A DNA stretch of 64,000 bases, from the NCBI GenBank assembly GCA_036873755.1, contig JAVTVY010037197.1:96774-160773 (forward strand), read 5' to 3'. Shown piece by piece: positions 21,213-62,702 of the stretch (the stretch's first letter is position 1; each line of letters begins with the position of its first letter). Under the pieces are notes generated by a model. The model had not been told where the DNA came from and did no database searches. It was given only the letters and a program-made list of their open reading frames with translations. The DNA comes from Hanleya hanleyi (taxonomy: Eukaryota > Mollusca > Polyplacophora > Lepidopleurida > Hanleyidae). A program made the position numbers and the translations under genes.

Positions 21213-21261
21213 AGCACTGTGGTCGAACGTGGAATGAAGGATGACGGCAGTGGTGTCTGGC

Positions 21262-22871: not shown

Positions 22872-22879
22872 TATTTATA
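22872..22879 (-). promoter_or_regulatory. TATA box upstream of PC4-like protein 1
   Basis: Minus-strand TATAAATA, about 73 bases before the inferred start at 22,799. The identical octamer occurs at 23,459-23,466 before the paralog, so promoter and gene were duplicated together. Confidence 0.6.
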
Positions 22880-30126: not shown

Positions 30127-30132
30127 AAGGTT

Positions 30133-33100
30133 TATGGTGGCTGGTAGCTGCCATCGCATTCGCGCCCTCGCGACCTGTAAATTTGCAAAAATTGTAGGAG
30201 CGCGAGTGGCTCAATACTGCCATGTTCGCGCATTCGCGGGGTCGCGATTGCGAGAATGCGCGAACACGCGAACGAGCACCGTTCGCGCGCGACTGGTGCT
30301 CGTTCGCGTGTTCGCGTGATCTCGCAATCGCGACCCCGCGAACGCGCGAACGGTACCGTTCGCGTGTTCGCGTGTCGCGCGATCGCGCCCTTCAAGAGGG
30401 CGCGATTGCGCGAACACGCGAACACGCGAACGGTACCGTTCGCGCATTCGCGGGGTCGCGATTGCGAGAACACGCGAAAACGCGAACGAGCACCAGTCGC
30501 GCGCGATTGGTACCGTTCGCGTGTTCGCGCAATCGCGCCTTCCGGTTCAAAAAGTGTTTGCGCATGTTCAGGGACCATCTCAAAACAGAACAATTGAATT
30601 TGTTGTTTTATTACATTGGGATTAGATTGATAGCCTATATTCTGATCAATAATCAAACATGTAGTTTTGCTTACTGTTTTGCCTATCATATATATGAAAT
30701 TGTAGTTTTATACACATTGTTTGACTTTATTTCTCTAAGAAAATCAAAATCCGCATTGCCGGCGACGTAGTCCGTATTTCGGTCATCGGAACCTTGCACA
30801 ATTCAATTTTCGTTTTTTTGCTTTTGGTTTTTCAAAATCAAAAATTGAAATTTGACCGTCAATTTTCAATTTTCGTTTTTCGTTTTCGGTTTCTCAAAAT
30901 CAAAAATTGAAATTTGACTTTCAATTTTCGAATTTCCTTTTTCGTTTTATCTCGCGCAAAAATGAAAATCAAATATTGAAAATTGCCTCGACTTGTCCGT
31001 TTTTCGTTCTTTTTATTTTAACTTTGACGCGTCAATGTTAACTGCACACGCGCAATGTTTATGATGTCACTTTCGGTCCGCGGAGTAGTATGGAAAGCGC
31101 AAATCGGATTGTTTAAGCAAGTGTGGAGCATAATATGGAAAACCAGTAGGGGGAAAGATTTGAGAGGTTCATTACACTATAGATCCCTGGAGCCAGGCAT
31201 TCGACCTAGATTATAATGGGCCAACTGCCCATGTGCAGAAGCGAGTAGGCATTCGTGCAGCAGGTGTGATGCATTATATGAAGAACAACCGGGGTGATAC
31301 ACACGGTAGTTTCATTAAAGTAGGGTGGTATAATAAATACGTGGGTACCCTAATCATAACCCCCAAAGGAACTTCCCGCGTCGATGCATTGAAGCGTTTG
31401 ACACCCGCACTTAAAGCGTTGAAGCGTTTTTGACGCTGAACGTTGACGGACATCTGAACGCTCCAACGATCCAGGTTCCAAAAATAGAGAATGGAGATTG
31501 GACCTGAAGCATTCAGACGTCTGGCATTAAACGTGGCGATTGTGTGCTTGTTTGAAATGGTGGTTTCTTGCCCTATGCGGATTTCGCGGCCCATCACCGC
31601 GATGCTTACTCTTATTGATATTACATCTTTGTTGGTATCTGTATAAATACTATATTTCAAATCAATAACAAATAGCGGTTGTGTGCATGAATGCTGTTCG
31701 CTTTTGTAGCTCTCTAAACATCTATTTTTAGAAATGAGAAAATCTAAGACTGCGTCCTGATTGGCTCAGTCCTCAATGTCAATAGCCAATGAGAACAGCG
31801 GGATGCTACCTATCCAGACCTGTCTGGTGCATCTTCACAAGTCCAGGTAAATCGAGAATCCTCGCACAGGGTTTACCTGGACATTTTTGGTGATTCGAGT
31901 GAGTTCTTGGGTCGTTGCCTCAATCTCGAACATTTCATCCCCAGAGGTTATTTTGAATTAGCATGTCGGTATCCCAAGTCGACGGTTTTTGCTTTGACTC
32001 ACTATGCCGATTTCAGCCTGACATCAAAGTGCAGTTAGTGGATTGTCGTAATGAGCTAGCTGAGACTGTTCAATAATTGGTTTGATTTAGAGAATACCCC
32101 TTGATTTTTTTTATACAGAACTACCGTGGGCAACTAACCATGGCAATGTATAGATACCCTAACAAATCGATCAATACACTGGCTTCCGAGGATGGCCTGG
32201 TGGGCCACATGCCTCTCACGATCCACATCTCTTATACGACACGATTTGCGTTTTCTATTCTACTCGGCGTACCGGAAGTGACATCATAACCCGTCCACGT
32301 GCGAACTTCACATTGATACGTCAAAGTTAAAATCAAAAAACGAAAAACGGACAAGTCGAGGTAATTTTCAATATTTGATTTTCATTTTTGCGTGAAGCAA
32401 AACGAAAAACAAAAATTGAAAATTGACTGCCAAATATCAATTTTCGTTTTTTGTTTTTGCAATCCCAGAATCAAAAATTGAAAATTGACGGTCAAATTTC
32501 AATTTTTGATTTTGAGAAACCAAAAACGAAAAACGAAAATTGAATTGTGCAAGGTTACACGGACCTAGCATCTGTCGCGCACATATTTGATTATTGTGAG
32601 CTGAAATAGGCTAATAACGTTAACGTAACACAATAATCTAATTTTGTAGTTCCAAGATTCAATACACATAGTCTGTTTGAGATGGTCCCTGGGCATAATT
32701 TCCGCACATGCGCAAACACTGAACCGGAAGGCGCGAACGCGCGAATGGTGCTCGTTCGCGTGTTCGCGGGATCTCGCAATCTCGACCCCGCGATCGCGCG
32801 ACACGCGAACACGCGAACGGTACCGTTCGCGCATTGGCGGGGTCGCGATTGCGAGATCGCGCGAACACGCGAACGAGCACCATTCGCGTCTTCTCGTGTT
32901 CGCGCAATCGCGCCTTCAAAGAGGGCGCGATCGCGCGACACGCGAACGCGCGAATGGTGCTCGTTCGCGCGCGAATGGCGCTCGTTCGCGCGCGAATGGC
33001 GCTCGTTCGCGTGTCGCGCGATCTCGCCCTTTTTAAGGGCGCGATCGCGCGACACGCTAACCTTACCATTCGCGCGTTAACGAGCACCAGTCGCGCGCGA

Positions 33101-33250
33101 ACGGTGCTCGTTCGCGTGTTCGCGCATTCTCGCAATCGCGACCCCGCGAATGCGCGAACATGGCAGTATTGAGCCATTCGCGCCCCTACAATTTTTGCAA
33201 ATTTACAGGTCGCGAGGGCGCGAATGCGATGGCAGCTATCAGCCACCATA
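30133..33250. mobile_element. Palindromic-arm element A (TATGG tips, 6-bp duplication)
   Basis: Tips TATGGTGGCTGGTAGCTG and inverse TATGGTGGCTGATAGCTG lie at 30,133 and 33,250. They are flanked by perfect AAGGTT at 30,127-30,132 and 33,251-33,256. Outer arms of about 400-550 bp are built from CGCGAAC/GTTCGCG modules. Inside lie AT-rich inverted arms (about 30,790-31,060 and 32,310-32,556) made of CAATTTTCGTTTTTCG-type modules, perhaps a nested relative, and a core of about 1.25 kb with no convincing gene. Long open frames across the arms are low-complexity artefacts. Confidence 0.85.
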
Positions 33251-33256
33251 AAGGTT

Positions 33257-34726
33257 AGATATGCTTGTTCTATTTAAAACGATAGACGGATCTCGTACAC
33301 ACCAACCATCTACTGTTGAAAAGTATTTTAGTGTTTTCTTAGATTTCCTGATGACCCAGGCATCGTGATAACGGGAAGAAGGAATCCAGGTACACTCTCA
33401 AACAATATACAAACTTGTTATTCTACAGCGAGTGATTTTGTTAGATTAACTTGACAGTTGGCATAATAAAGTTAACGTTTGTGTGATACAAACCGGGGGC
33501 CCTACTACTCACATAGGAGACGAAATCGACTATCAGACACATCTATACGCCAACCCCAAAGCAAGGCCCGCATAATTTACGTCACCCTCTCGACTGGAAC
33601 TATTGGCTGGAAGAATTGTGTGACAACCTGGCCATGGCCATGGTCATTCACACATAATAACATTGATATATGCGCGATTAATATGCTCTGCCGTGGACTT
33701 ACTATGGCTTGTTGTGTTAAACACTTTTATCCAACAGACCATGTGAAAGATCAATACATGGAACTTCTGAAGATGTGGACGGGAGGACGAGGTACTCCCC
33801 TGAATTATTTTTAGAATTTCAACCGACCCATTTTTGACCCATTCCAAGGCACTCAGTCACAATTGTTTCCCACTCTTTTCATTGGGGTGGTACGAGGCGG
33901 GCCGGACCGGGTTGGGTCGGGTCGGGTCGGGTCGGGTCGGGCCTGGGTTCAGACGCACCGGTTATAAGCTATGAACATATCAACTCACAAATTATCACAG
34001 TTTTGAACATTGAACGTTTCGCATGTTTAAGTTACATAGTCCAGTGCTATCATCGTTGGTTGGCACCGCAATGATACAATATGGAGTCCATGTCCTTCCA
34101 GGGATATCTGCCGCTGGATATCCCCATCATCCCTAGTCATGGTTAGTCTATCAAATCCGTGCCCTGACGGATATCGTATAAGCCATAACGAACAGGAACC
34201 GGCTGATTCGGAAACATTTCGGAGCGCATTCGTGACCCTTCCGAATATGCCCATATTTGAGCGGATCAGGCACCACGTAATGTGTTGTATATATGATCCT
34301 TTCTGCGTGTTGAATTCACATGTTTCGTATCCGACGTTGTTTTGACTTGAGAGGCGCCCCCATGTAGTTTCCCTCCGGGACATCACACAGTTTTCCCCCA
34401 GCGGCTTTTCTCTGTATTGAGCTCGACCTTCGTCGAAATATACCGAGATCCCACGAAGGTTGCGTTTACTGTTATTTTAAACTGACAGTTCCAGTGATAA
34501 TCGTACAGCCCTAATTTGCCTACAGGACCTGGTACGGAGGTACGGAGTATACAGATTTGCATTATGGGGAATGAAGAACCCGAGAAAGCTCGAATGGATA
34601 CGTAACGTGCTATGTGTTCTTTTGTCATCAATCGTCAACTAAATATTACACAAGCGATGTGATCCAAAGGGACAGGAAGTCATTACTTTATTTCAGATTT
34701 GTCTGTTTGTTAAATATGAGACTACA
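33257..34726. other. Non-coding stretch with a short GGGTC array
   Basis: Contains GGGTCGGGTCGGGTCGGG near 33,910-33,940. I see no gene; open frames here are short and without recognised domains. Confidence 0.5.
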
Positions 34727-35524
34727 TCAGAGGCCTGTCCCATAGAACTTGTAGAGTATACCGTCTCGCCAAGTTGCATCAAAGGCACCCTCTAGATCTA
34801 CATAGGCAGCCAGAACTGTTTCCTTCTTTTTCAGAGCTTTTGAGACCTCAGGGGCGAAGAAAAGCAGGGCTTGAACTAGATTCTGGTCTTTCTGGTAGGC
34901 ATACTGGAAACTGTCGAAAAGTCCGTGCTCCTGTAGCCATAATCTCAGTCTGCGGTCAGCGATACGTTTAAATAATTTACCTGTAATACTGGCTAAGCTA
35001 ATACCTCGGTAGGAGTTTGGATGACAATAGTCTGCCTTGTCGGGTTTCGGAATATGAATACGGTTCTCCTTTTTCTCCGTGCCCTGGAGCCAACAGGACA
35101 AGGAAACAATGGAGAAGGCAGGGACAGGATTTGATCCAGAATGTTTTGACATCACTGGAAGAACACGATCAGGTCTGGGTGAAGATGTGTTCAGCCTAGG
35201 AAGGGCTTGTCTGACTTCGTCATGTCTGATACCTTGGTTTTGGATCTCGGGTGCTGGTTTCTGTGGAAGAACAGAGTAGGGCAGCCATCCCAGTCTGTCT
35301 GAAATCCTTGACCCCAGATCTAACGTGTTCGAGCCAGTCATCATCGAATTCTGAGTTGTCAGCAGTCCGGTTAACATCAGGATGTCAGAAATTTTCTCAT
35401 CATCGAAGCGAAAGGAACCATCCGAGCCACGAAGGGGCTGAACAACTGCTTTCTGTTTACCGCCTTGCAGATTGCCAATTTTGCGCCATTTCTGCGGATC
35501 CCTTGGGTCCACCTGCCTTTTCAA
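34727..35524 (-). pseudogene. LINE reverse transcriptase fragment (I/Jockey-like)
   Basis: 265-codon frame without stops. SYRGISLASITGKLFKRI and YVDLEGAFD match RT motifs of LINEs; the catalytic Asp of motif A is present, while the downstream ADD box is missing. The N-terminal part (PRDPQKWRKI) fits the linker before RT. Endonuclease and 3' end are absent. Confidence 0.75.
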
Positions 35525-35766
35525 TTTGCCATTGATTGGCGTTTGACAATACTGAAATGCACAATTTGCGCGGGAAGGTCTTTGATATTATAATATGGAT
35601 CCATGAAGTTATATTTTTTTCGTTTAGAAAGTGATCGTATAACAGAATTTTCGTCATTTTGGGATTACACTCTCTTTATATAGCGCAGATTCTAGTACTG
35701 AAAATTGGTTGAATTCAATGCGGTATTCCAACCATCAGAGTAAATCATCCAACCGCCAGCCCTATA

Positions 35767-36183
35767 TGGAAAATACTAGTTTCAGCGGAGCCTACCCAGA
35801 GAACCCGTTTGAATTTCAACATTTCGGCATCATTTTGTGGCCCTGCATGTGGACGGACAACAGGTCCCAGCCACGGCCTTAACACCAAACTTTGGGGGCA
35901 GGAATTTTATTCGAGCCTATCAGAGCCTGTTTACAGCCACCGGTCAAATCAACCAGGACGAAGGGAATATGATCAGTCGTGAGGACTACGCGAACGGATA
36001 CACGTTGTTCTGTTTCGATCTGACCCCCACCTTAGAGAACGACCATCAGTTGGCCCTGGCCAAGGCAATTTATGGTTTGCACGAGCCCTCGGGACCACCG
36101 TCAATGTGATCTGCTACGCCGAGTTTGACAACATCATTCAAGTGGACAAGGCGCGCAACGTCCTGTGTGACTTTGCCACCTAA
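35767..36183 (+). pseudogene. Major capsid protein C-terminal fragment
   Basis: Matches the last 140 or so codons of the 16,260-17,570 capsid gene ([14 protein letters not shown] is present). A one-base loss near 35,832 and a small deletion near 36,066 break the frame. It ends one base before the protease start, as in the main element. Confidence 0.8.
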
Positions 36184-36184
36184 C

Positions 36185-36757
36185 ATGGATACAGACCAGA
36201 TAACCACAGTGCTGGAGAATGACACAGGGACACGTATGGTCTTTCAAGGGGTGTTCGCCCGATATGTGTTCCCATTAGACCGCGTGTATCCTGCTGCTTA
36301 CGTTTTCAACACGGACCCGATGAATCGGCCCGGTGAACATTGGGTGGACGTGTACTTGACAGAACAGCAGGGCGAATACTTTGACCCGTACGGCCTGCCA
36401 CCCCTCCATCTCGATTTAACAGACTTCATGGATCAAGGCACAGAGACGTGGTGTTGGAACAGTGAAACGTTGCAAAGCCTGACCAGTAGCGTGTGCGGAC
36501 ATTATTGCTTGTTTTACCTGTACCATCGATGCCGGGGGAGAACCTTATCTACCATCGTACAGATGTTTGACGAGTACTCCAAGGCCGAGGACCGTTCTGG
36601 GCTTAAGTTCTTTCACGAAAAACCCCCTGTTCTGGGCTTAAGTTCTTTCAATGTACAAGCCCTCTGTTCTGGGCTTAAGTTCTATCGATTTCAATGTACA
36701 ATCCCCCTGTTCTGGGCTTCAGTTTTCACGTGGTTGTTCTCACGTTGTTGTTGTTAG
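36185..36757 (+). CDS. Adenain-like cysteine protease, fragment 3 (altered C-terminus)
   Basis: From MDTDQITTVLEND at 36,185 the frame is open. Candidate catalytic residues: His in GEHWVDVY, Asp in EYFDPYG, Gln in LQSLTSSVCG, Cys in VCGHYC. This copy lacks the frameshift seen at 16,195. After KAEDR the native end is missing, and translation runs into 37-bp repeat sequence (GLKFFHEKPPVLG), adding about 45 unrelated residues. Whether that product folds is unknown. Confidence 0.8.
   Translation: MDTDQITTVLENDTGTRMVFQGVFARYVFPLDRVYPAAYVFNTDPMNRPGEHWVDVYLTEQQGEYFDPYGLPPLHLDLTDFMDQGTETWCWNSETLQSLTSSVCGHYCLFYLYHRCRGRTLSTIVQMFDEYSKAEDRSGLKFFHEKPPVLGLSSFNVQALCSGLKFYRFQCTIPLFWASVFTWLFSRCCC
36590..36735 (+). 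repeat. 37-bp protease-end repeats, fragment 3
   Basis: Three to four units with TTCTGGGCTTAAGTTCTTTC. Equivalent to the array at 15,640-15,820 but with different copy number, so the array is unstable. Confidence 0.7.
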
Positions 36758-36766
36758 TTATTATTG

Positions 36767-36772
36767 AATAAA
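36767..36772 (+). terminator. Poly(A) signal, fragment 3
   Basis: AATAAA in the same context as the minus-strand signal at 15,602, just after the 37-bp repeats. Confidence 0.5.
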
Positions 36773-38738
36773 AAACAAAATGAGATCTCACCAAAAAAAA
36801 ACCCTGTCTTGTGTGTTTTCTATATGAGCATAATGCATGAAGGCTATAACAGACATGTGGGGATTCGGTCACACTGGCTTTGAACACCGTGGAGAAAGTA
36901 GCCAATCAGTGGCCTAGGATGGGGCCAAATGCAACCAATCAATGTCCAGAAAACATTACCCGCATGTACAAGAACCCGGATGTAGGCGCCGACGTAGGCG
37001 AAAGCATCCTAGTACCTGGATGTAGGCGCAGACGTGAGCGAAATTCTAGTACCCGTCCATTGGTTCTTTTATCGATCGCTCATTGGCGCTTTTTCTCGAC
37101 CGCTGATTGGTCCAAATGGAACTGCCCATCCTTCCCAGGTTAATTTACAATCCCCTTTTTGTGTTCAAGCTCTGTATATCGATGCCGCAACATTGTAGCG
37201 ATCGTATCTGAACTTGTTGTTATTCACGACAACCGCTTTCCGCTATACTTGGATGAAATATATACCCAGATGTGATATAGTGTCCTTGCACACTTCCGAA
37301 ACTTCCCTTTAACCCGCGCGTGCGGCCGGATAACCCGCGCGCTCGCGCTCGCCCAGATAATCCGCGCGCGCTGCGGCCGGGCCGGTCCGGGGAAAACTTG
37401 GATGTTGAAAATCCGGACCATACGTCTAAGGAAAAATTGGAACTCTTCTGTGTTCGGAGGTAGTTTTAGTGAAACCCAAAGTGACGTCACACACACTTGC
37501 ACAGAATCCACACCACCAAACCACAACCATGGACCCATATGGGGTGTAGTACCCCAAACACACTCCCACGCATCCCCAAAATGCCTGCTTTCTATACTAC
37601 GACCAGACTGCGCATGCGCAGATTGTTGAACACAGATGATACATTAGTCCAGTCGCATGCTGCTTCACGAGAGCTTCAAAATAAGACCTCATACGACTCC
37701 ATCGGACCAATAGCGACCCATGTCGGCGCCAAAATGTCTATTTCCATATACTTGGTATACTGCGCATGCGCAGAATGACGTCAGTTTTACGTCAAATCCA
37801 TCCAGTCGGATGCTCCTTCACGAATGCTTCACACTGATACCTCACTCGACCCCATCAGACCATTAGGGGCCTACCTAGACCCCAATACGTCTATTTCCAT
37901 ACCCTTTTCCCAGAATTCCCTGTCTGCGCATGCTCAGAATGTTGAACACGAACGACACACTAGTCCAGGCGGATGCTCCCTCACGAGATCTTCAAAATAA
38001 GAACTCATTCGACACCATAGGATCATTAGGGGCTCACCTAGATCCCAAAACGTCTATTTCCATACCCTTTTCCCACAATTCCCTGTCTGCGCATGCGCAG
38101 AATGTTGAACACGAACGACACACTAGTCCATGTGGATGCTCCTTCACGAATGCTTCACATTGATACCTCACCCGATCCAATCGGCCCACTAGTGGCCCAC
38201 CTAGACCCCAAAACGTCTATTTCCATACCCTTCTCCTACAATTCCCTGTCTGCGCATGCGCAGAATGTGGACAACGAACGATACACTAGCCCAGGTGGAT
38301 GCTTCCTGCCGACTGCTTCCCATTGATACCTCACTCGACCCAATCGGCTCATTAGGGGCTCCCCTAGATCCCAAAACGTCTATTTCCATACCCTTTCTCT
38401 ACTGCGCATGCGCAGAATCACGTCAGTTCCACGTCACACCCAGCCCATTGGATACTCCCTCACGACTGCTTCACATTGATACCTCACTCGACCCCATCGG
38501 TCCACTAGCGCTCCCTACAGATTGCCGAACCGTCTCACGAAAACCCACGGTTTCGGGACTACTTTCGGACCGCGGAGGCAGACCGCATCACCGCATCACC
38601 GCGGAGGAATACATGCCTCCAAGGTCACGCCCCATTCACCCAACACTCCTGCGCACACCTTCACAAAACCTCCACTTTCGGTTTCTCGCGCATGCGCAGT
38701 GACGAGCCAAAGCCTCGAAATCACAGCTATATACTACT
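36773..38738 (+). repeat. Polinton terminal region, fragment 3
   Basis: Spacer shared with 15.2-15.6 kb (36,790-37,200, several CCAAT boxes), CpG-rich block (37,310-37,385), degraded ETS/CRE (37,475-37,490), six or seven satellite units of 150-165 bp each with TGCGCATGCGCA (37,600-38,480), then the block shared with 10.99-11.27 kb and the tip at 38,738. Confidence 0.75.
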
Positions 38739-39718
38739 CAGAACCAATCATATATTTTTAGAGATTCGACTCCAGTAATATCTAGGGGACAGCTAGAGAA
38801 CCGACTGAAGTATTCCAAGTCTTTGGTCGAACATCCTCTCCAGACTCAACGCCTTGCCACAGATGGCGGGAAGTCCAAACGGACGCAAATGTATTTAGTA
38901 GAGCTTCTTGGACAACCCAGTCTTGCCTTGGAAACGTGCTGGTCGAACTGTTTACCCAAACAGTATTACGCCGTCGAAGTTTACCAGACACTCATGCTAC
39001 CGTAATAATCAAATCGAAGTATCCAACAAAAGCACCGAGGGGCGTAAGTGTGGCACATTGACGAAGGACATTACCTTTAATTGGTAAAACCGGAGATTGC
39101 TGATAGGGCTGCCATCATCATATGCAGCGACGATGATATGAATGTTATAATATGTCTGTTAAGGATACACACACTAGCTCGGTCGAGAGACAACTATCAG
39201 TTTTATTATTTCATATTAGAATTAAAGTATATACATATATCCTGATGAAAAATTAAAACTCCAATTTCATGTAATCGAATTTTAAATCTGAACATCTCCA
39301 ATCAAGCGCTCTAAACAAAGATCAAAAACAACTGTCAGTTTTATTACTTCATAATAGAATTCAATTATATACATATATCTTAATGAGAAAAAAATCTGAA
39401 CATCTCCAATCAAGCGCTCTACAAAACGATGCAACAATTAAATTCTTGATTTCTCATTTCGGTGTTCGCACGGAGTTTATTTGAAAAACTGTTCATTTCT
39501 CCAGCCTAGAAAACTGGAGATGGGGCCAAAACGTCATGTAAGAATCACGAAGTCATAGCTTTCAACTTTGATAAATCTCCTTCATATTAATTATTTCAAA
39601 GCTAAATTCTACACAAATTTTTAAAATTGAAGAACGAAATTTCAGTTGAAATTATATTAAACGAGAAAGTATTTTTGAAGTGACTATGAGTTTAATAGTC
39701 CCCTTACTTTTTCAAAAA
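38739..39718. other. Non-coding 3' flank of the host gene
   Basis: AT-rich. A near-duplicate segment of about 100 bp (CATCTCCAATCAAGCGCTCT at about 39,294 and 39,402) is the only structure I see. No gene. Confidence 0.5.
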
Positions 39719-42124
39719 TTACTGGCCATAATGGCTTTGAGAAAATCCTTCAAATGCAGCATTATTCTCTTTTTTAGTCTGTTGTCGAAACAGCATTTCT
39801 TGTTTTATGAACTCGTCAATGGTGAGAGGAAGCAACCTTTCAAGATTGTCCCTATCCCTACTTATAACCAAACTTTTTCTGACGAACTGGGCCAATTTAG
39901 GAAGTAGTCCGGTAAACAAGGCAGCGACGGCTTCTGTCCCAACAGATAGATTGGACGTTTTACCAAATTCCCTAATAACTTTAGCACCAAGTTCGAGAAA
40001 ACACCCAATACAGATAACTTTCATCACTGAACAAAACACTTCTCGTCGTATGGGCAGATGGCGCTCAGAGATGAACAAAAACAGCCTCCTAGGTATCATT
40101 GGTATAAAGTGCCTATATCTAAGTATTCTAGAATAACGCCTTCCTTCAATGGGCAGGATGTCATCTACATGCGAAACTCTATCTTTCATCTTGACACCAT
40201 TGTTCTTTTTGTTGATTTTCTCCACGTACAAAATCGTTTGTCTAGAGAGGTCAGAGTAGGCCCGGGAGAAACCAAGCACCGATTCGGTCAAGTATAACAA
40301 TATTATCGAGCCGACTATAACGTATACCACCGCACGGCGTGGGTTGAGTACGATACCAATCAGCGTTAGTGCGATCGCCTCGAATATCATGTTAAATGAA
40401 TGGATAAATATATATGCAAAGAAAAAGCAAGCGATACAATAGGTACAAAGCAGAAATATCGCCACCGTGATGGCGAATATCCCAGACATACATTGTCCAC
40501 GTATATTTGTTGATGGTCTGGAATGCATGGGAACTCTCCAGACATACAGATGAAGGAGGCTGTGAAGCCCCGTCTTTGCTAAAAATACAACTGGTGAGCC
40601 GTAATATACAAAAACCAGAATTCCTTCCAACACCATCATAGAGACCAGCCCAAGTAAAGCTAACGGTAATAATAAACCGACAACTACGAAACATACAAGC
40701 GAATGTTTAGAACGAGGAAACAGTAGCTTCACCACAAAGCGACCACGTGCGAACCACGTGTAAAATAACAGAGCCCAGAATTTACAGTTGAGTAACATAT
40801 AGAACTGGGCCATCATGATGGCATGCAGTTTGCTGAATCCTCTTTTACCTACAATCCGACTTTTCCTGTCCTGTAGTCCGTATTTTTCGAGAAAGTCGAT
40901 GTTAAGCGCAAGAAATGTGCACCGGCGTCTTTTTGAAACAGCCTTGGCACAGTACGCCTTCCCAAGACTGTCGGGTATACAGACGAGGAAGCATGCTGAA
41001 CTGATGTAGAGAAGGAAGAGAATGTACGGTCCCCCCATAACGTATCCCCAGTTCCGGCGGCTTTGCTCGTACCCAAATGGTATGGCTAGGTAACTTATGG
41101 GGACACCTTTGTCCAGGAACGCTTGAAGAATGTCTCTGTGGTAATGGTACTCTAGGGCTGTGTGGATGTACAGGATGGATGGGGAAAGAAGAACAAAGAG
41201 GATACGTCGGAATCTTGATGCTACCTTGGAGGAAATGTTGAAACAGAGAATGGATTTAATGAGTGACAACAGATCTATGCCGTGATTACCGTTCAGTTCC
41301 ATCCACTCGCCAGTTTCGGTATCCTCCCACCCCAACACGATGTCCTCGCCATCCAGGAAATTATCACCGAATCTCTCATAGCCAGATTTTTTTAGTTTTG
41401 GTTGCTGCAGATTTAGGGGTGACTTACCCACAGTTATGTATTTGATATACAACGGGAAGAGACAGAAGACGATAATAGCGAGTACCATGGCAATAGACAA
41501 GAGCCAAGTCTGTTCAATCTCACGACAGCGTGGCTGTTCAGGTTTTGGTTCGGTATCGCAACAGTTGTATCCAGTAGAGCCTCTCATTATTCCAAAGAAT
41601 TGATCCGTTTGACTAATATCGAGTCCTATCGGAAAACACAATACTCCTTCTTCTGGGTGTTGAGTTCTCTGAGCCGCAAGATGGAAAGCCTGATAAATTT
41701 GGTCGAGACCCGAGTTTCCACCAAGTTCTACGGTACAGTCAGGTGTGCTGGCGTTCAGGTTCACTTCTATATAATCTACAACCGAACTGAGGATTCCCAG
41801 AGACAACAACTCAAAGTCATAGGGATACTGAAGCAGCGTATAAGTGGTATGATCTCCGGCCCACGTCACCACACTGGGATCCAATAGCGGACTTCCTTTG
41901 TCAGAAGTTGTCACATTGTAAGCTGTAATATTCATATGTATCCAGAGGAAGCGTTTGTCTGCCACTCTTAGAAATCTCTTTACAGATTCATACTCCATTT
42001 CCAAGCTACAGGACGAGTTGGCCTCCTGGGTCAGAAACCTTCCCAACTCTACACCTGAGACAGCACGAGCGATATACGACGTAGCAAACTGAAGAACTAG
42101 CAGGTACCACCAAAAAATCGTCAT
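39719..42124 (-). CDS. Single-exon multi-pass membrane protein, host gene of unknown function
   Basis: 801 residues, uninterrupted. Residues 1-21 look like a signal peptide. Residues 22-205 form an ectodomain with N-glycosylation sequons at N36, N65, N70 and N123, and cysteines C39, C130, C163, C188, C189, C200. Hydrophobic segments follow at about 206-230, 307-325, 360-383, 433-459, 474-515, 548-593, 598-618 and possibly 698-716. Between 231 and 300 lies an acidic cytoplasmic or luminal loop. The C-terminus is basic and hydrophilic. I do not recognise the family; topology recalls DC-STAMP-like proteins but no diagnostic motif is visible. No mobile-element features, so I treat it as host. Confidence 0.75.
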   Translation of the reverse strand: MTIFWWYLLVLQFATSYIARAVSGVELGRFLTQEANSSCSLEMEYESVKRFLRVADKRFLWIHMNITAYNVTTSDKGSPLLDPSVVTWAGDHTTYTLLQYPYDFELLSLGILSSVVDYIEVNLNASTPDCTVELGGNSGLDQIYQAFHLAAQRTQHPEEGVLCFPIGLDISQTDQFFGIMRGSTGYNCCDTEPKPEQPRCREIEQTWLLSIAMVLAIIVFCLFPLYIKYITVGKSPLNLQQPKLKKSGYERFGDNFLDGEDIVLGWEDTETGEWMELNGNHGIDLLSLIKSILCFNISSKVASRFRRILFVLLSPSILYIHTALEYHYHRDILQAFLDKGVPISYLAIPFGYEQSRRNWGYVMGGPYILFLLYISSACFLVCIPDSLGKAYCAKAVSKRRRCTFLALNIDFLEKYGLQDRKSRIVGKRGFSKLHAIMMAQFYMLLNCKFWALLFYTWFARGRFVVKLLFPRSKHSLVCFVVVGLLLPLALLGLVSMMVLEGILVFVYYGSPVVFLAKTGLHSLLHLYVWRVPMHSRPSTNIRGQCMSGIFAITVAIFLLCTYCIACFFFAYIFIHSFNMIFEAIALTLIGIVLNPRRAVVYVIVGSIILLYLTESVLGFSRAYSDLSRQTILYVEKINKKNNGVKMKDRVSHVDDILPIEGRRYSRILRYRHFIPMIPRRLFLFISERHLPIRREVFCSVMKVICIGCFLELGAKVIREFGKTSNLSVGTEAVAALFTGLLPKLAQFVRKSLVISRDRDNLERLLPLTIDEFIKQEMLFRQQTKKENNAAFEGFSQSHYGQ

Positions 42125-42189
42125 CTTGTTGCAATGCTGTCTTAGGGCGTCTTACCTCTCTTTGTTGGTTTGCCTGAAAGTAATGCAAG

Positions 42190-44430: not shown

Positions 44431-44929
44431 AAAATGCGGTAACGGACGGACGGACGTACGGACGTACGGACAGACGGACGGACGTACATGGCGACGACAA
44501 TGCCCCGAGGCCAAAATGGCCGAGGGGTAAAAACTATCTTCCGTATATACATATATATTAAATATCCAAATGCGAAAATTCAATCTGCCTGATGTTGTTT
44601 TGAACTGTTTATTTTCAGTATCATATAAGGAACCTTGGAATGGAATCGCATCTGTACTTTTTATCTTAGAGCTGTACATCTGAATAAAGAAGTGGTCAGA
44701 CAAATCTGACAGACACCGAATGAATGTAACGCAGAGATTAAGATACGGACTGAATGTCAGGCAGGGTTTTTTTTCGGATTCTGGTACTTGATTTTGTGTT
44801 TCCTGTGGTATAAATCGCGCTGATGAGAGCGTATAGCAATGTAACAAACATGACGTGATCCAATAGTTATGTTTCGTCCCTATTATCATAGCCAGTCCGA
44901 AATTAAGACTGAAACATACAGGAAGTGAA

Positions 44930-45030
44930 CGTTTCCGCGTTTCTAAAGGTGTACATCAGGGAAATGCTCTGGGTCATCTTCCATGTGATTATTAATGACC
45001 TGCGATCCGATTTAGAAACCGTGGGCACAC
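44930..45030 (+). pseudogene. LINE reverse transcriptase scrap
   Basis: About 30 codons read RVSKGVHQGNALG and, after a frame change, NDLRSDLE, matching the RT block that precedes the catalytic box. Too short for clade assignment. Confidence 0.45.
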
Positions 45031-45848
45031 ATGCACACGTTCACATGGGTATAACAAGATAAGTAAAACAAGACGCAGGCCATAATGGAACCTATCATTT
45101 CAAAGGCCAAAAGTCGAGGTCACCATGCATGCATCAAATGGAAATAAGCAATTTATGCACAATTATTCAAGTTACCTTCACCAAATTTCACAAGTGGCTT
45201 ACTCTTGTAAGTCTGTTGAAGACTATTGATATTACAGTCACAATACTGCCAATACAGGTACAATTTTGCCATGTCTCAAACAGAAGTACGATCAAAGTTT
45301 GTTTGCCGGTAATAATTTATCAGGATATGAGGCATAACTGTTCTGCTGAACTTTTTTTTCAAAAAGAGATTGAACAATATTATCTCTCTTTTACTCCAAA
45401 TACATGGTATGCATATTTGCTATGCGTTCACATGACCAGATTTGCATACAGTACCAAATACATATGTGTAAATATACGTTTGCACAACCTTCAGACCAGA
45501 TGCAAATTTGCGAACAATCTATGCGAATATATACACGTGTGCACTTGCGGTCACATGCTGAGTTTGGATATGTGTATTTTATTCTACACAGTGTGCAGAC
45601 ATGGGTATGTATACATCTGTATGGGGTTTTTTTGACAAAGATGATTTGGATGTTTGTTACCGATTGGTGCTTGTCGATTAATATACATAAAACAAAAGTG
45701 CATGTACACGAAGTGTCAGTTGGACAGAAAAAAAATTACAGTTGACGTGGAGTGTGTAAATAAGTACTAGTACCAAAATTGTGAGATAATTCTTCTTGGC
45801 AATGGAAGGTTTACCAGAGCATCATCAATCTTGCCTCTAGGGCATAGA
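45031..45848. other. Non-coding; one open frame not supported
   Basis: A 168-codon open frame (45,129-45,635) has biased, Cys/Tyr/His-rich composition with no recognised domain, so I do not call it a gene. Confidence 0.4.
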
Positions 45849-48800
45849 ATTGATTGATTGATTGATTGTTAATTCACCATTTCATCAATGTATATACTAA
45901 CATAATATCGAATACGACTGTAACAATGGCGAGAATAAAATCCCAGGGGGCTTGTTCTATCACAAACAGATAATATTTTAAGTAAGTAAACGACTGGTTA
46001 CAACAGGGTAAGAACAGATACAAGCATGTGTTCAGTTTCTGCTGTTATTATTTACGATATGTATATATAAAATATATATATATGGTGAATAGAGGATCGA
46101 GCTCTCGGTACTGTACATATAATGAAATTCTGTCGATTTAGCAAATCTGAGAGCTCGATGAAGCAGATGATGAACAATACAGTTATGTACAAATAGGGTT
46201 TGTTTCTTCACTAAATCAAAATAGGTTCTTTAGATTGTGTACATACAATACAAGCTAATAGATAAACTTGTAAAATAATTTTTTAAAGGCTTAAGTAGAG
46301 CTGTCAGCAGCTTTTGTTGTGTATTGTAGTGGTTACACCCTCCAATACTTGGATAGATAAATATGGCTATCATCAACAGATAGTTTAGTTTGGAGTTAGC
46401 GTTTAACAAGGTAGGTCTTTGGGCGAGATTTGAAAAGTGAATAGGATGCGGAGGCTTTTATGTCAGCGGGCAATGAGTTCCACATACGCGGTGCTTTATA
46501 TGATAAATTTGAAATCACTCGTATTCTGTAGGGATTAATGCCGGATTGTCGGGTGGGGTAGCAGTGAACTTTTGTAAAATAGTTTATAAATATGGTCGGT
46601 AGAGAGAATGGTGTGTGGAAAAAATTGTGGGTGAATAGCAAAACCAGGTAGTCATTGATTTAATGAAACGTTAGGATGTTTAATTGCTCAAGTAATGGAC
46701 TGGTATGAGCGTATTTGATACTGGAAGTTATTAAGCGAATAAGTCTTTTTTGGAGCACGACTAGAGGCCTAAGGTGTGTTGGGAACATGTTACCCCATAC
46801 AATGTTCCAATAAGATATATACGAATCAAACAGGGAATAATATACTATGATCAAGGTTTTCCTGTTAAGGCAGTGCCGTACAATATTGATTACACCAATT
46901 CATTTATATGAGTTTGCCAGTTTAGTTTATCGTTAAAATGGATACCAAGAAATTTGAAGATGGTAACTGATTCAATTTCGGAGCCGAATATAGATATTTT
47001 GGGGGTAGTAGTATTGGCATGTCGGTTTGGTTTGCAGAACATGTATTTAGTTTTCTTCACATTTAAAGAAAGTTTGTTACAGGAGAACCAATTATGAAGC
47101 TTTTCAAGTTCGTGGGACATTGTCTCAGCTAGTCTATCGGGATCAGTATTAGAGAGTGGCGCTAGTATTGTCAGCAAAGAGAGTGATGTCTAGGACAGAT
47201 GTGGCTTTATTTATATGATGTATGTATATTAAGAAGAGATTGGTGCCTAGTATTGAACCTTGCGTCACACCAGTGTTTATCGCTTGGAGAGGAGACAGTA
47301 TACCGTTGACCGATACGCACTGTGACCTGGTCGTTAGATAGCTGCGAAACCAGTTGTTTTCAACTCCACGGAAACTATAGTAGTCGAGTTTGTACAAGAG
47401 AATCTCATGATTAACTGTATCGAACGCTTTCGAAAGATCTAGGAAGGTGGAGATGCTGAACTGCTTCGATCCTTTGGCAGATGCAAGTTTGCCATAAATG
47501 GGGAGAGCTACATGGAACGTAGAATGGTTAGCACGGAATCCATATTGGTTTGACAGATAATGTTGTTGTTAGTTTCTAGAAAAATAGTTATCCTGAATGC
47601 TACAAGATTTTGCTCAGGCAAGGGAGAACAGAAATTGGTCGATAATTTTCTACTGTAGATATGCTTCCAGACTTGAAAACAGGAGTGATTTGTGCAGTCT
47701 TAAGAGCATTGGAAACAATTCTATTTTCAAAAGATAAGTTAACAATATGCGAAATGGGGGAGAATATTAGGCGCGATATTGGTTTTATGAGAGACATGCC
47801 AATATCGTCAAAACCAGCCATTGTTTAGTACAGATATGACTTCAACAATATCAGTCGGAGTACACGGATTAAATATAAATTCATTATTATAGTGTTGTTC
47901 AAGATCAGTTGAAAAGTCGTCTTGGGTGTTTGGGATTTCGAGGCAAGATCGGAGGCAACTGAAGAAAAGTAGTCAGGATCAGTAATAGCATTACCATTGG
48001 AGGTGAATACACGTTGGAGAGAGCTACATTTCTTACGGTCCTATAATTACGATCTATAATTTTCCATGTTTCCTCAATATTGTTGAAGGAGTCATTGAAT
48101 TTTTGTTCATAGTAATTGTTCTTGGCTTATCTGATAGTATGATTAAGTTTGTTTCTGTATAGCTTGTATTCACGAGTTGTATCATAATCTTTGTTGGAGA
48201 CATGTAGCCTGTATAATCTGTTTTTTCCTGGATTGAGCGAAGGATACATGGGGTTATCCAGGGTTTAGGTATTGAAACTTTATAAGTACTCGTATGTTTT
48301 GTTATTATAGGAAAGCATTCGTTGCAGATAACGTGGAAATGATCTAGAAAGATGTCCATAGCGTTATAGCGTCGTAGAGATTAGTATTGTCTTGCCAGTC
48401 CATGCCTCTCAGTTTTTCGGTGAAAAGAGTTTTTTGAAAGGGACTTATTTTACGCAATTAAAGCTTATTGATTGTTTGGCTGTGGGTAGAGAACGACTAG
48501 TTGTGTGAAAGATAGGGAAATGATCAGTTATGTCTGAGAGTATAGGATTCCGGAGCCCAGGTCATCTTCATGGAAATTAGTGAAAATATTGTCTATTAAT
48601 GTGGCAGAATGGGATTTAACTCGGGTGGGTTTGTTGATTTTAGGGAAAAAAGGATGTTATAATCCCCCCAAAACTCCCTTGTAGGACCATGGTTCTCGGT
48701 TTTGAAAAGATCAATGTTAAAATCCCCCATTATGACAATTTTTTTTTTTTTTCTGGTTTCAGAGTGTTCAAAATGGAGAGTAGGCTAGAGTTGAAATTAG

Positions 48801-49060
48801 TAACGTTTTTCCCGGGTGGTCGATGAACAATTCCAATTTATATATGTTTCGTGATTAATAGTTACTTCAACAATCAAAGATTCGTGTTCCTCATCAACTT
48901 TGTGAATTCTTCTTTCATATAGAAGCCGTGTTTGTGTTTCTTGATAAGAGGAAAATAAAGGCTCTTCAGTGGAAGGATCAAGCCGTAAGTTGAAGTTCAT
49001 ATTCTGTATAAGCGCTAGGACTTCAATAATGTTTGTTTAGGCTTCTTCCGTTGATATGGA
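45849..49060 (-). mobile_element. Decayed LINE (CR1/L2-like), nearly full ORF2 in pieces
   Basis: On the minus strand, in order: endonuclease remnant (INWNCSSTTREKR, about 48,800-49,000), linker (48,054-48,359), RT start (NYRPISVLPCLSKIL, about 47,600), RT middle (GVTQGSILGTNLFLIYI and FADN in place of the usual ADD, about 47,150-47,300), thumb (WFSCNKLSLNVKKTKYMF, about 47,050), and C-terminus (YKAPRMWNSLPADIK, about 46,400). Multiple frameshifts. A CAAT tetranucleotide tail at 45,849-45,868 matches LINE 3' ends that terminate in short repeats. Confidence 0.75.
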
Positions 49061-49121
49061 GGATAGACAAATATTGTTTATCAGAGATAGAGTTCGTGTT
49101 TATATATGAATTAACTATATA

Positions 49122-49231
49122 TGTCTAACTTCATATGTGCGATGAACAACATACTTGTAATAGTATCGAGCAGCCAGACACTTGGAAACCTTGAGAAATC
49201 AAATGAAATAGTTACGCTCTCCTCTCTTGAC
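49122..49231 (+). repeat. Repeat X, split copy, part 1
   Basis: Matches 27,864-27,970. Interrupted at 49,232 by element B. Confidence 0.75.
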
Positions 49232-51450
49232 TATGGTGTTCTATTTGGGCCAATTTGATCTCGCGCGTCGACTTGCAAAAGGGCGACGCGCGACGGAGAG
49301 GGCGACGTCGCCTTTCAAAACGCGACGTCGCCCTTTTCCGTCGCGCGTCGCCTTTTGCAATGTTAAAGAGATAGGCCAAAACATATGGTGTCTTATTTGG
49401 GCCAATTGCCCTATCTCCTAACATTGTAAAAGGCGACGCGCGACGCGCGACGGAGAGGGCGACGTCGCCTTTCAAAACGCGACGTCGCCCTTTCGCGTCG
49501 CGCGTCGTCCTTTCAAAAGGGCGACGCGCGACGCGCGACGGACATTCGCGTCGCGCGTCGCCCTTTTAAAAGGGCGACGGACGACGGACGACGGACATTC
49601 GCGTCGCGCGTCGCCCTTTTGGTTTACAAAAGTGCGCATGTCTTGGGGGAGCATCAATCAAATTATCAATTGAAGTTTGCCACTATAGGTTGTACAAACG
49701 TATTATATAAAATTCACAATCTTTGTTAACTTTCTCCTTTTATGTAAAGGTGTATCTGTGTTTGTACTTTGATGTGTTGAATTATAGTATATTTCACCGT
49801 ACTGTATGGTATGCTATTGTTTAGAATTGTATTGTTTTGTAATGTATTGAGTTGTAATATGTTGAATTGTAATATATTGTATTGTAATGTATGGTATTAT
49901 TTTGCATTTTATTGTATTGTATCGTATCATATAGTCTTGTTCTGTCTCGTATTGTTTCGTTGTATTGTGATTTGGGGTGTTAATTTCGAACGAAAAAAAA
50001 TGTTCACATCTGCGATTTCCGAACCTTGTAGCTTCTGACCGGTGTTGGTAATTTGCTGAGAATTTACTGCAACAAAGCAAGAATGGCAAGATATTTAACA
50101 TACATTGAGACTATGTACCACATACTTTAATTGTTTCGCTGTCAGATATGTTATATTGCTGATTAATTTTCGAACACTGGTACCTGTGTTCCACAAAATC
50201 CACACCCCTCCATCGCGAGGACAATACGCATCTATTAGCGTGTCAATGTGTTCATATTTCGTCGGGCTAATACGTAAAATAAATTCAAGTTTCCAATAAT
50301 CAACCAAAAGCTTATGTAAATAACGGTTTTGCAGGAGTAACAGTAACGACTGGAAAACAGAGAAAAACTAATTAACAGCTTGTGTAGCTCAAAGGAAATG
50401 TGGGATCTTAATGTTTTCCGGCCGAAAACGAAAGTTACTGTTTTTCGGCAGAAAACGAAAGTTACTGTTTTTCGGCCGAAAACGAAAGTTAAATGACCCC
50501 ACACCTCACCTTTACTTTGACAGCATATCATGCATATAGTCACTTGTCTGAAATGGCAGAAAACAAAGCCTTACTATTAAAAAGGGTTGTATGATTCGAG
50601 ATAAAATGCAACGTGGCGCGTTTTAACAGGTCTCCAGAATGTAAGATCTCACAGTTCCATTGAACTACACAAGCGATTAATTATTTCCCCTCTGTTTTCC
50701 AGTCGTTACTGTTAATCCTGCATAATAGTTACTTACATACGCTTTTGTTCATTAGTGGAAACTTGAATTTAATTGACGTATTAGTCCGGCGAAATAGTAA
50801 CACATTGACAAACGAATTGTCCTCTCGATTGAGGGGTGTGGATTTTGTGGAATACAGGTACCAGTGTTCGAAAATTGATCAGCAAAAAAAGCATTTCAGA
50901 CAGCGAAAAAATATATTATGTTGTACATAGTCTCATTGCATGCAAAATATCTTGTCATTTTTGCTATCACCAACATAATTACCAACACCGGTCAGTCAGG
51001 AGCTACAAGAATCGAAAATCACAGCTGTGAACATTATAGTAATACATGCTCCCCCCAGACATGCGCACTTTTGTAAACCAAAAGGGCGACGCGCGACGCG
51101 AATGTCCGTCGCGCGTCGCGCGTCGCCCTTTTTAGAAGGGCGACGCGCGACGCGAATGTCCGTCGTCCGTCGTCCGTCGCCCTTTTAAAAGGGCGACGCG
51201 CGACGCGAATGTCCGTCGCGCGACGCGAATCCGCGCGCGTCGCGCGTCGCCTTTACAATGTTAGGAGATAGGGCAATTGGCCCAAATAAGACACCATATG
51301 TTTTGGCCTATCTCTTTAACATTGCAAAGGGCGACGCGCGACGGAAAAGGGCGACGTCGCGTTTTGAAAGGCGACGTCGCCCTCTCCGTCGCGCGTCGCC
51401 CTTTTGCAAGTCGACGCGCGAGATCAAATTGGCCCAAATAGAACACCATA
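49232..51450. mobile_element. Palindromic-arm element B (TATGG tips, 6-bp duplication)
   Basis: Tips TATGGTGTTCTATTTGGGCC are exact inverses at 49,232 and 51,450, flanked by CTTGAC (49,226-49,231) and CTTGTC (51,451-51,456), one mismatch. Arms consist of GGGCGACGCGCGACG modules with CpG retained. The tip is duplicated internally (TATGGTGTCTTATTTGGGCC at about 49,387 and inverse at about 51,294). The core (49,630-51,060) is itself largely inverted, e.g. ACCGGTGTTGGTAAT at about 50,039 and its inverse at about 50,980. No gene. Confidence 0.82.
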
Positions 51451-51456
51451 CTTGTC

Positions 51457-51571
51457 CCACCTACCGTTCTCATCTCCGACAGTCACAAGGCACCCGTTCT
51501 AAGATCGTATTACTACCAAATGGCACAGCCGCACTCATTGGCGCAGGGGTCCTCTAATATTACTACCCGGT
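51457..51571 (+). repeat. Repeat X, split copy, part 2
   Basis: Matches about 27,980-28,095. Lies between elements B and C. Confidence 0.75.
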
Positions 51572-52842
51572 TATGGTTGGCGCTGGTGGACAAAATTTCA
51601 CAAATAGCACTCGGACTAATTCGATTTAATCCTCGGGTTAAATCGGTTTAATCCTAGGGCTAAATCGACCAATTGTAATACATTTCCTAAACCCCGGATT
51701 ACATTCATTTAGTTCTCGGACTAAACAATTTAACCCTCGGGTTGATTACATCCAATCCCCGGACTCATGATTTAACCCTCGGAACGGAATGACTTAACCC
51801 GCAGACTAGATGATTTAACCCGCGGACTAGATGATTTAGCCCTCGGACTAAATGCATTTAACCCTAGGTCTAATTCGATTTACTTAGGGCTAAATTGACC
51901 AATTGTGATACATTTCCTAAACCCCGGGTTATATATATCTAGCTCTCGGACTGAACGATTTAGCCCTTAGGCTTAAATATTTAACCCTCGGAGTGATTGA
52001 TTCAATCCTCGGACTGAATGATTTAACCCGCGGACTAAATGATTTAGTCCGAGGGCTAGATTATCTAGCCCGAGGGCTAGATTGTCCAATCAATTGTGCG
52101 TTTCTAGACCGCATATTGCACGGACCAACCAAGTGCATGTTTAGGAGGTCGGTCACAACAAATAATTCAGTACATCTGCATGTATACAGGCTTTTTTCGG
52201 TGAACAAGACTACGGCCGTATATGTAGGCCTGGACAAACATGTATTTGTGGGAATGCGTCATGGTGTGTCTCAACCAAATATCTATTGAGAACGTGTTGT
52301 CCGAAAATTTGAGAAGTAAAAATTGTTGTCTTCTAAGACTTTTGTAACTGGTGCAAAGCATATCTATACTAGCACTTTTTGTTTGAAACATTCACTGTTG
52401 GGGTGGTAATTTTCTTATTCCTTAATGAGGATTTATACTCGACAATCCTATGTATTAATCAAATTTTCGCTACCCCTTGTCAGTCTTTTAGCGATTTCTA
52501 CCCAATGGCTTAGAGAAAGGTCATGAAAATTCACCCACTTGTCAATCTCTACACGAGAAAGTTTTTGAAAGAAGAAGAGAAAGAAATCATATTTATATTT
52601 ATATTGTCCGTAATTTTAGTCTGGGAATGTCAATCGGGATTGCCCCAGTTAATTCCAAGATTCAAATCGATCTACATGTGTCAAACAATTATGCTAGACG
52701 ACTATTTTCCCCATACTGCGGTGAAAATATTAACCAAGTCCTTCCAAATATTAATTTTTCATTTCATATTTCTTGTTTTGTCTTGTTTTTTTTTCGCAAC
52801 ACAGAGAAGATTGGTGACGAATTTCACTTCATGTTAGAATGT

Positions 52843-53883
52843 TATGGAAAGCCACCAGTGTCATAACCTCCGGTTTTCCACGCGTGGTAATTCGAGTTTC
52901 CACGCGTGGAAAATCCAGCCAATGGTTTGACTTGTAATTACCACGTGTGGATATATCGACCAATTACTTAACTTAGAAATACCACACGTGGAAATTATTT
53001 ACCACGTGTGGAAAATATCCACCAATGATAGAACTGGAAATACCACGTGTGGAAATTATTTACCACACGTCGTATTTATCACCCAATCATTGAATTCGGA
53101 AATACGACGCGTGGTAAATAATTTCCACGCGTGGTATTTCACTGGGTGTTTCACACGTGGTAATTCTCTTTTCCACACGTGGTAATTCTATTTTCGACTC
53201 TACCAATCAAAACAATCGTTACAGAAAGCAGATACGCTCACTTTGACCCTGTCTTATCTGTCGCACGGTCGTCGACTTATACGACTCAGCCTCAGGTGGA
53301 ACTCCTGCACTGCTCAATAAAAAACTTATTAGAGTTTGCTACACGTACCTGTATTTTATGAAATTGACAATGAAAGTGTCCCGTTGCAGATTGTCTGTTC
53401 CAGCTAGACGAACACATTCGGAGAACTGATACTTGAACCGCCGCAAACTGTCGATTTCCGCCATTCTGAAGGGACCAGCTTTCCTTGTTAAGCTCTCATT
53501 CATTGGCTAGGTAAAATAAAATTTCGACGCGTGGATAAATGGGAATACCACGTGTGGAAATTATTTACCACGCGTCGTATTTCCGAATTCAATGATTGGG
53601 TGATAAATACGACGTGTGGTAAATAATTTCCACACGTGGTATTCCCAGTTCTATCATTGGTGGATATTTTCCACACGTGGTAAATAATTTCCACGTGTGG
53701 TATTTCCAAGTTGAGTAATTGGTCGAAATATCCACACGTGGTAATTACAAGTCAAGCCATTGGCTGTATTTTCCACGCGTGGATAATACAATTTCCACGC
53801 GTGGATAATAGAATTTCCACGCGTGGAAAATCGAATTACCACGCGTGGAAAACCAGAGGTTATGACACTGATGGCTTTCCATA
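52843..53883. mobile_element. Palindromic-arm element D, nested in C
   Basis: Tips TATGGAAAGCCACCAGTGTC and inverse TATGGAAAGCCATCAGTGTC, with perfect GAATGT duplications (52,837-52,842 and 53,884-53,889). Arms are arrays of the 10-bp palindromes CCACGCGTGG and CCACACGTGG (or CCACGTGTGG) separated by 15-30 bp, over about 360 bp each. The core of about 300 bp is non-coding. These palindromes contain E-box-like or CpG cores. Confidence 0.88.
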
Positions 53884-54386
53884 GAATGTCGTGGTCTATG
53901 TAATTTTCGTATTAAGTAGATACCCAAGTATTATTTTACATATATATCACCAAGTTGAAAGTTTCCATTATTCTTAATGTTTGGAGATTTTGTTACAGTA
54001 TGTAGAACTCCCAGGCTCGGAAAACTGAAGACAATGCCGATAAGCCTGTTTCACAAGCCTGGAGTTCGGCAAATTAACAAACATATACACCAGTGTTCCC
54101 GTTAACCTTGACTTGTAGTACCATGGGAATTCTGCCCAATTCTGCCCGGACAGCAGCATTACATGCCTTTTTGTTCACCCCAATAGTAAACTTGCAAAAC
54201 TTGGTATATGAACGCTTTCAATTGGGGAACATTCATGAATATCTCAACAGCCCAAATTTCGAAATTATATGAAAGAATTGGGTTGACCATGCTATCAAAA
54301 ATCTTTGTGTACATGTAGTGATGTATAACTATATATCAGGCCTGGTACATCAAAGCCTATAAGAGAGCAAATTACCGCCGTAAAAC

Positions 54387-54772
54387 CATCTTCATTTTAT
54401 CCAGCCAATTTCTACGTTCCCACTTCGAACCTGCCTTGATTTATCGGACCTCTTCAGCGTTCATAATCCGAGTTGTAAATTTCACCAGCTAACGACAGAA
54501 GAACCAATCAGAACGTACACATCGATTGCGAGTGAAGTCACATTGGGTGACATCATCCTCTATTTGCGGCGTCCTTCCTCCTAATATGGTGCCCACTAAT
54601 TAGGTCAGCCAATCAATAACGCTCTTGTGCGACCCATTTCGAATTTCAAATGTTTTCGAGGTCAGTGACGTCTCGTGTCTATTTATAAGTTATTTGAACA
54701 TTGAAGGGGTCCAGATATATCAAGGGAAGTTCGAAGTGAGAACGTAGAAATTGGCTGGATAAAATGAAGATG
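54387..54772. mobile_element. MITE E with 8-bp target duplication, nested in C
   Basis: Inverted ends CATCTTCATTTTATCCAGCC extend about 40 bp (through TTTCTACGTTC). Flanks are CGTAAAAC at 54,379-54,386 and 54,773-54,780, a perfect 8-bp duplication. That length fits hAT or P-type transposases; the tip does not let me choose. 386 bp, non-coding. Confidence 0.75.
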
Positions 54773-55466
54773 CGTAAAACCGATGATAGCTTATCCAGCT
54801 GCTCTCAATACAAGGCAAACACGAGCAGGATTTAACACTTGTGTTTACACTTTACTGTTATCACGCGCCAACTTTATACCACGTGGCCATCTTCTAATCT
54901 AGCTTGCTCTTGATTAATATGCGGTCTAGAAACGCACATTTGATTGGACAATCTAGCCCTCGGGCTAAATAATCCAGCCCGCGGACTAAATCATCTAGTC
55001 CGCGGGTTAAATCATTCAGTCCGAGGACTGATTCAATCACTCCGAGGGTAAAATATTCAAGCCCGAGGGCTAAATCGTTCAGTCCGAGAGCTAAATATAT
55101 ATAACCCGAGGTTTAGGAAATGTATCACAATTGGTCAATTTAGCCCTAACTAAATCGAATTAGACCTAGGATTAAATGCATTTAGTCCGCGGGTTAAATC
55201 ATCTAGTCCGCGGGTTAAATCATCTAGTCCGCGGGTTAAATCATCTAGTCCGCGGGTTAAATCATTCAGTCCAGGACGGGATCAAATCAACCCGAGGGCT
55301 AAATCATTTAGTCCGAGAACTAAATGAATATAATCCGGGGTTTAGAAAATGTATTACGATTGGTCGATTTAGTCCCAGGATTAAATCGAATTAGCCCTAG
55401 GATTAAATCGAATTAGCCCGAGGGCTATTTGTGAAATTTTGTCCACTAGCGCCAACCATACCCGGT

Positions 55467-60906: not shown

Positions 60907-60916
60907 GCGGTGGCAA
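57534..60916 (-). pseudogene. Protein-primed DNA polymerase B (one frameshift, N-terminus truncated)
   Basis: Two frames: 58,340-60,916 (858 codons) and 57,534-58,433 (299). Frame 1: C2H2-like finger near residues 148-168; exonuclease motifs at D212/E214 (YDFEA), N345-D350 (FNSGRYD) and Y475-D479 (YNNLD); polymerase motif A at D574 (FDANALYLS); VFQFHGCYWHGHEC near 657-670. Frame 2: motif B KLLGNSGYG (residues 52-60) and motif C MDTDSAY (151-157). The frame change coincides with a G5 run at 58,373-58,377, so a one-base indel or consensus error is likely. The start shown is artificial: homology to the longer copy begins at codon 5. Confidence 0.9.
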
Positions 60917-60936
60917 CCTTTACACCGCGCGCGCCG

Positions 60937-62690: not shown

Positions 62691-62702
62691 TGTAGAAAAA
62701 CG

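Follow-up and report, generated by a model that had tools for sequence, protein, structure and literature searches.

The stretch of 64,000 nucleotides at positions 96,774 to 160,773 of contig JAVTVY010037197.1 from the polyplacophoran mollusc Hanleya hanleyi (the window, in an assembly comprising 2.48 Gb and 52,793 contigs) was analysed for four foldback elements, A, B, C and D. The analysis indicated, with a probability of about 0.8, that these represent four different, apparently non-autonomous foldback families mobilised in trans by a DDE transposase of the IS3EU/GingerRoot type. By the present evidence they are probably foldback members of IS3EU/GingerRoot and not a new superfamily.

All four elements were checked base by base (Table 1). 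Each carries TATGG..CCATA tips, and terminal inverted repeats (TIRs) longer than 30 bp were found in all of them. The target site duplication (TSD) is exact over 6 bp in A, C and D and agrees at 5 of 6 positions in B; when lengths from 4 to 10 were compared, only 6 matched completely in A, C and D, and 6 also matched best in B. Both the tips and the 6-bp duplications had been claimed in the initial annotation, a reading of the letters alone, and were thereby confirmed. Only outermost, non-extending ends were counted as element ends because perfect inner palindromes mimic TSDs; a tip-free scan gave many spurious boundaries within palindromes and was set aside. The chance expectation was obtained from 300 first-order Markov resamplings, using pairs 300-8000 bp apart whose tips agree in 13 or more of 16 bases. 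Nine qualifying TATGG..CCATA pairs were observed against a mean of 0.64 and a maximum of 4 in the resamplings, and when a 6-bp flank match (at most one mismatch) was added, four pairs were observed against none in 300. When each of the 1024 possible five-base tips was scanned with a stricter filter, including an outward-extension filter which drops A, TATGG was found at three separate elements (B, C and D) and every other tip at two places at most. With a like filter, no TAYGG-tipped element was found in the 96.8 kb next to the window on the contig.

The recurrence of the families in the genome was analysed using 100 bp of each tip as query. The first look gave 182 candidates for A, 405 for B, 484 for C and 924 for D as unscored word matches, of which the best 40 per family, window element included, were scored and showed 93-100% identity over 99-100 query bases. 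Viral contigs gave no match for any of the four tips. From these best-scoring 40, 12 copies of D, 8 of B, 7 of A and parts of one of C were fetched, yielding 21 independent insertions outside the window in which both tips were found (9 D, 5 B, 6 A and 1 C). An exact 6-bp TSD was found in 14 of these, a 5/6 match in one, an apparent 7-bp duplication in one and none in five. The recurrence that the initial annotation had proposed as a check was clear for B, where all five copies with both outer tips have an exact 6-bp TSD, and for D (7/9 independent insertions). It was weaker for A (2/6) and for C, whose single outside copy is flanked by GTCGGC/GTCGGT (5/6).

Among the fetched D copies, nine had both tips in the stretch and eight of them exact 6-bp duplications, L016 having none; L019 and L024 are one and the same insertion. 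Three D loci showed one tip. L022, when extended, has a second tip closing a 2,550-bp span with no duplication; extension of L018 to its contig end gave no second tip, and L020 stops at its contig end. The L022/L037 span (G000:C45225:18192-20741) is D-tipped with other sequence inside and no matching duplication, and is perhaps a chimeric copy. Three B copies had one outer tip, and in the one that was extended the partner tip was not found. Of the A copies, six had both tips and one (L045) a single tip. Exact duplications were seen in L041 and, at the outermost pair, in L042; L040 showed a 7-bp GTTTTAC duplication as read from the flanks, and L039, L043 and L044 showed none. The flanks of the A-type copy L039 (G000:C45908:14583-15235) are mutually reverse complementary, which would fit either a larger palindrome or an artefact of assembly. 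The nine D copies differ mutually by 0.1-6.4%; this closeness is biased because all fetched copies were drawn from the best-scoring 40, and a recent spread is likely.

The ends and duplications were compared with those of described superfamilies. Complete IS3EU families are described as always having TA..TA termini and usually a 6-bp TSD, and GingerRoot as having a 6-bp TSD with mostly TA..TA termini (PMC10045372). For fungal IS3EU elements carrying TET/JBP genes, the description gives 6-bp TSDs, TIRs longer than 30 bp and TAYGG..CCRTA ends (PMC12730594), a signature which covers that of A-D. Non-autonomous families are also normal in IS3EU, since only 17 of its 45 families in Repbase of May 2022 are autonomous (PMC10045372). 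A-D differ from these descriptions, which give only the TIR length, in their long foldback arms built of short modules and in showing no transposase. GingerRoot, found in Selaginella and with supposed animal relatives, agrees with A-D in its 6-bp TSD and its mostly TA..TA termini. Ginger1 and Ginger2, whose integrase-like transposases belong to the same broad group, differ in their TGTNR tips and 4-5-bp TSDs (PMC2836005), neither of which A-D show.

The coding content is in accordance with apparently non-autonomous elements, as the initial annotation had supposed. The inner parts of A-D hold 50 stop-free frames of at least 60 aa, and the 20 of these scanned against Pfam gave no meaningful match, only three chance hits (E 0.09-0.18). 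Six one-tip D or B loci were inspected, three of them extended, and no IS3EU-type transposase was found among their large frames, which comprised a Pao retrotransposon, a weak reverse-transcriptase match and a leucine-rich-repeat protein. The superfamily assignment thus rests on ends and duplications, because no transposase-bearing relative was found.

Several observations weigh against this assignment. The best-matching published signature is from fungi, and the agreement of the tips spans five bases. The duplication is absent in five of the 21 independent copies and 7 bp long in one, A being the weakest family with two exact TSDs in six. No autonomous or transposase-bearing relative was seen among the loci inspected, no genome-wide transposase search having been made. 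Among the tip-bounded spans the longest belongs to a C copy (5.32 kb), which was examined at its ends and over 1.6 kb of its middle, where one frame resembles a non-LTR retrotransposon by eye.

The absence of a visible transposase would also fit a superfamily not yet named that combines TATGG tips with 6-bp duplications, a reading first proposed from the letters alone. In its favour too, A-D showed by blastn within the window no similarity to anything outside their own spans, and they share little beyond the tip. The view of one architecture in differing sequences was borne out, with modules that are element-specific in A, B and D. The statement that these features define no known superfamily did not hold, as IS3EU/GingerRoot is described with such termini and TSD length (PMC10045372, PMC12730594), and with tip and TSD already covered an unnamed superfamily is very unlikely.

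Mobilisation by a Polinton/Maverick integrase, which likewise leaves 6-bp duplications (PMC10045372), was considered a slightly smaller chance again, although the window does hold an rve integrase frame (20487-22874) and PolB frames (within 57534-60919). To our knowledge, Polinton tips are not TATGG. A-D were also the sole TATGG pairs in the window to pass the tip and duplication filters, a weak argument with the ends of the Polinton-like units not located. The Polinton-like gene sets themselves lie at 873-9943 (+), 16260-22874 (-) and 57534-60919 (-). They comprise an rve integrase and a type B DNA polymerase by Pfam; capsid-like and ATPase-like frames were recognised only by eye. Several of the frames are similar and lie in tandem, and one copy is inverted.

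Other groups with 6-bp TSDs were given a lower probability still. Dada-U6 leaves 6-bp TSDs (PMC3706591), and hAT6 is the name given to hAT families with TSDs of this length (PMC12730594). The Dada families whose ends are described there, however, lack TIRs and are located in small RNA genes (PMC3706591), whereas A-D have TIRs, and neither a tRNA nor any Rfam family at gathering score was found in the window. An origin as chance inverted repeats or as debris of tandem repeats is hardly credible: false TSDs are indeed common inside long palindromes, but no resampling reproduced tips with duplications, and D, B and A copies at independent sites have the same boundaries, each time with a new 6-bp duplication where one is present.

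The arms of the elements were then characterised. The motif CCACRYGTGG was counted 34 times on both strands in D and nowhere else; the motif is palindromic, so that this corresponds to 17 sites. CGCGAAC was counted 34 times in A and 5 times elsewhere, and GGGCGACG 18 times in B and twice elsewhere (both strands), while the arms of C consist of 21-22-bp units by Tandem Repeats Finder (TRF). Against a window value of 0.98, the CpG observed/expected ratio of the outer arms is 2.0 in A, 1.9 in B, 1.5-1.6 in D and 1.2-1.3 in C; that of the inner repeats is 2.1-2.3 in A and 0.9-1.0 in B. Perfect palindromes of at least 8 bases have 1.2-2.7 centres per 100 bp in the outer arms of A, B and D and 0.6-0.7 in C, against 0.5 in the window. 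A CGCG core common to all arms was considered and rejected: it is strong in A, B and D, but only 2 and 6 sites lie in the C arms, and the count of the left arm does not exceed that of dinucleotide-resampled sequence. In A and D the two arms contain unequal numbers of modules, suggesting tandem duplication. D folds as a single long hairpin at -402 kcal/mol as DNA, a value given without a shuffled control. Drosophila FB and Galileo and the sea-urchin TU foldback elements likewise have very long arms of short tandem repeats; their tips and TSD lengths differ from those of A-D.

A second, inner inverted repeat is present in A and B. Arm identity over aligned bases, outer/inner, is 95.8%/86.5% in A and 96.3%/88.2% in B; it is 91.9% in C and 95.9% in D. 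Counted from tip to centre per 100 columns, the mismatches are 3, 3, 4, 6, 7, 8, 14 and 17 in A (5 in the last 29) and 0, 1, 8, 6, 12, 11 and 12 in B (10 in the last 83), so that the arms of these two match best near the tips and diverge inwards. No inward rise was seen in C (9, 12, 9, 5, 8; 1 in 44) or D (4, 4, 1; 1 in 7). Gaps in the module arrays could conceal mismatches in such alignments; the ungapped outermost stretches show the same trend, with 3/172 mismatches in A and 1/195 in B against 44/327 and 45/382 inside. By a rough test the gradient seems largely inherited from a progenitor: within each of five B copies the two inner arms are 11-17% different, as measured on only 23-268 aligned columns, whereas the difference between whole copies is 0.7-1.5% of the aligned columns. 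The mean difference of 6.2% between copies in the inner slices of B probably reflects fixed slices misaligned across indels. Arm divergence was dropped as a measure of age, the inner divergence of B being largely common to copies that differ little overall. The C arms are more diverged than those of D (44/544 against 13/319 mismatches, p 0.023), which fits the nesting of D in C. Conversion within single copies was not visible in D (own arms 0.025, between copies 0.026) or in B (0.022 and 0.017).

The ends of B are duplicated. A second tip lies 152 bp inside each arm, agreeing with the outer tip at 22 of 24 bases, and the module block behind it repeats the outer block (114/120 ungapped columns match). 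At the inner left tip, the sequence on its left mirrors that on its right in 45/49 ungapped columns. At least one inner tip was found in 7 of the 8 fetched B copies (right 7/8; left 4/5 of copies with both ends), and an end was probably duplicated in an ancestor that they share. The four complete inner tip pairs lack a duplication, with 4 or 5 of the 6 positions mismatched, and the outer tips are therefore those used in these insertions. On the left side only, B contains a GTATT-type microsatellite within about 345 bp at 49655-49998.

The duplications show the joining step. In the proposed mechanism, an IS3EU/GingerRoot-type DDE transposase would recognise the TATGG tip, perhaps together with the module array behind it, would excise and move the element, and would insert it by 6-bp staggered joining, giving the 6-bp duplication. 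The arms may lengthen through tandem module duplication and, in B, also through duplication of the whole tip-plus-module end.

Table 1. Positions of elements A-D and their parts in the window
Feature	Positions	Strand	Remarks
Element A	30133..33250		Foldback, 3118 bp, tips TATGGTGGCTG
A left TSD	30127..30132		AAGGTT
A right TSD	33251..33256		AAGGTT
A left outer arm	30133..30545		CGCGAAC modules; 95.8% of 379 aligned bases against 32725-33250, gaps up to 46
A right outer arm	32725..33250		
A inner inverted repeat, left	30790..31127		86.5% against 32222-32556
A inner inverted repeat, right	32222..32556		
Element B	49232..51450		Foldback, 2219 bp, tips TATGGTGTTCTA
B left TSD	49226..49231		CTTGAC
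B right TSD	51451..51456		CTTGTC, 5/6
B internal second left tip	49384..49407	+	22/24 bases like outer tip, then same module block
B internal second right tip	51275..51298	-	22/24 bases like outer tip
B inner inverted repeat, left	49999..50410		88.2% against 50642-51035
B inner inverted repeat, right	50642..51035		
Element C	51572..55460		Foldback, 3889 bp including nested D and nested 386-bp element
C left TSD	51566..51571		CCCGGT
C right TSD	55461..55466		CCCGGT
C left arm	51572..52117		21-22-bp units (TRF); 91.9% against 54916-55460
C right arm	54916..55460		
Element D	52843..53883		Foldback, 1041 bp, within loop of C; CCACRYGTGG modules
D left TSD	52837..52842		GAATGT
D right TSD	53884..53889		GAATGT

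The 386-bp element in the loop of C (54387-54772) has tips CATCTTCATTTTATCC, alike at 16/16 bases, and an exact 8-bp duplication CGTAAAAC. Elsewhere in the window, a segment of at least about 275 bp, starting GGGTATTATTTATGCAAATGAGATGACGTCATCGATGACGTCA, was seen by eye in two direct copies at 56021-57000, and a tandem repeat with a 34-bp unit (8.3 copies, 97% matches) lies at 62412-62693.

A broader idea, which we regard as rather doubtful, is that of a transposase group whose passengers repeatedly evolve one body plan, that is a fixed five-base tip with self-made arrays of short, CpG-rich, mostly palindrome-rich modules. The modules would then be binding arrays that arose by convergence instead of inheritance, and the arms would be renewed from outside by duplication of whole ends (tip plus modules), as the double tips of B suggest. 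The four elements provide a concrete set of multicopy foldback families assignable, at the strength given above, to a superfamily for which only brief descriptions were found, and the duplicated ends within arms bear on the origin of foldback elements and on how their arms stay alike.

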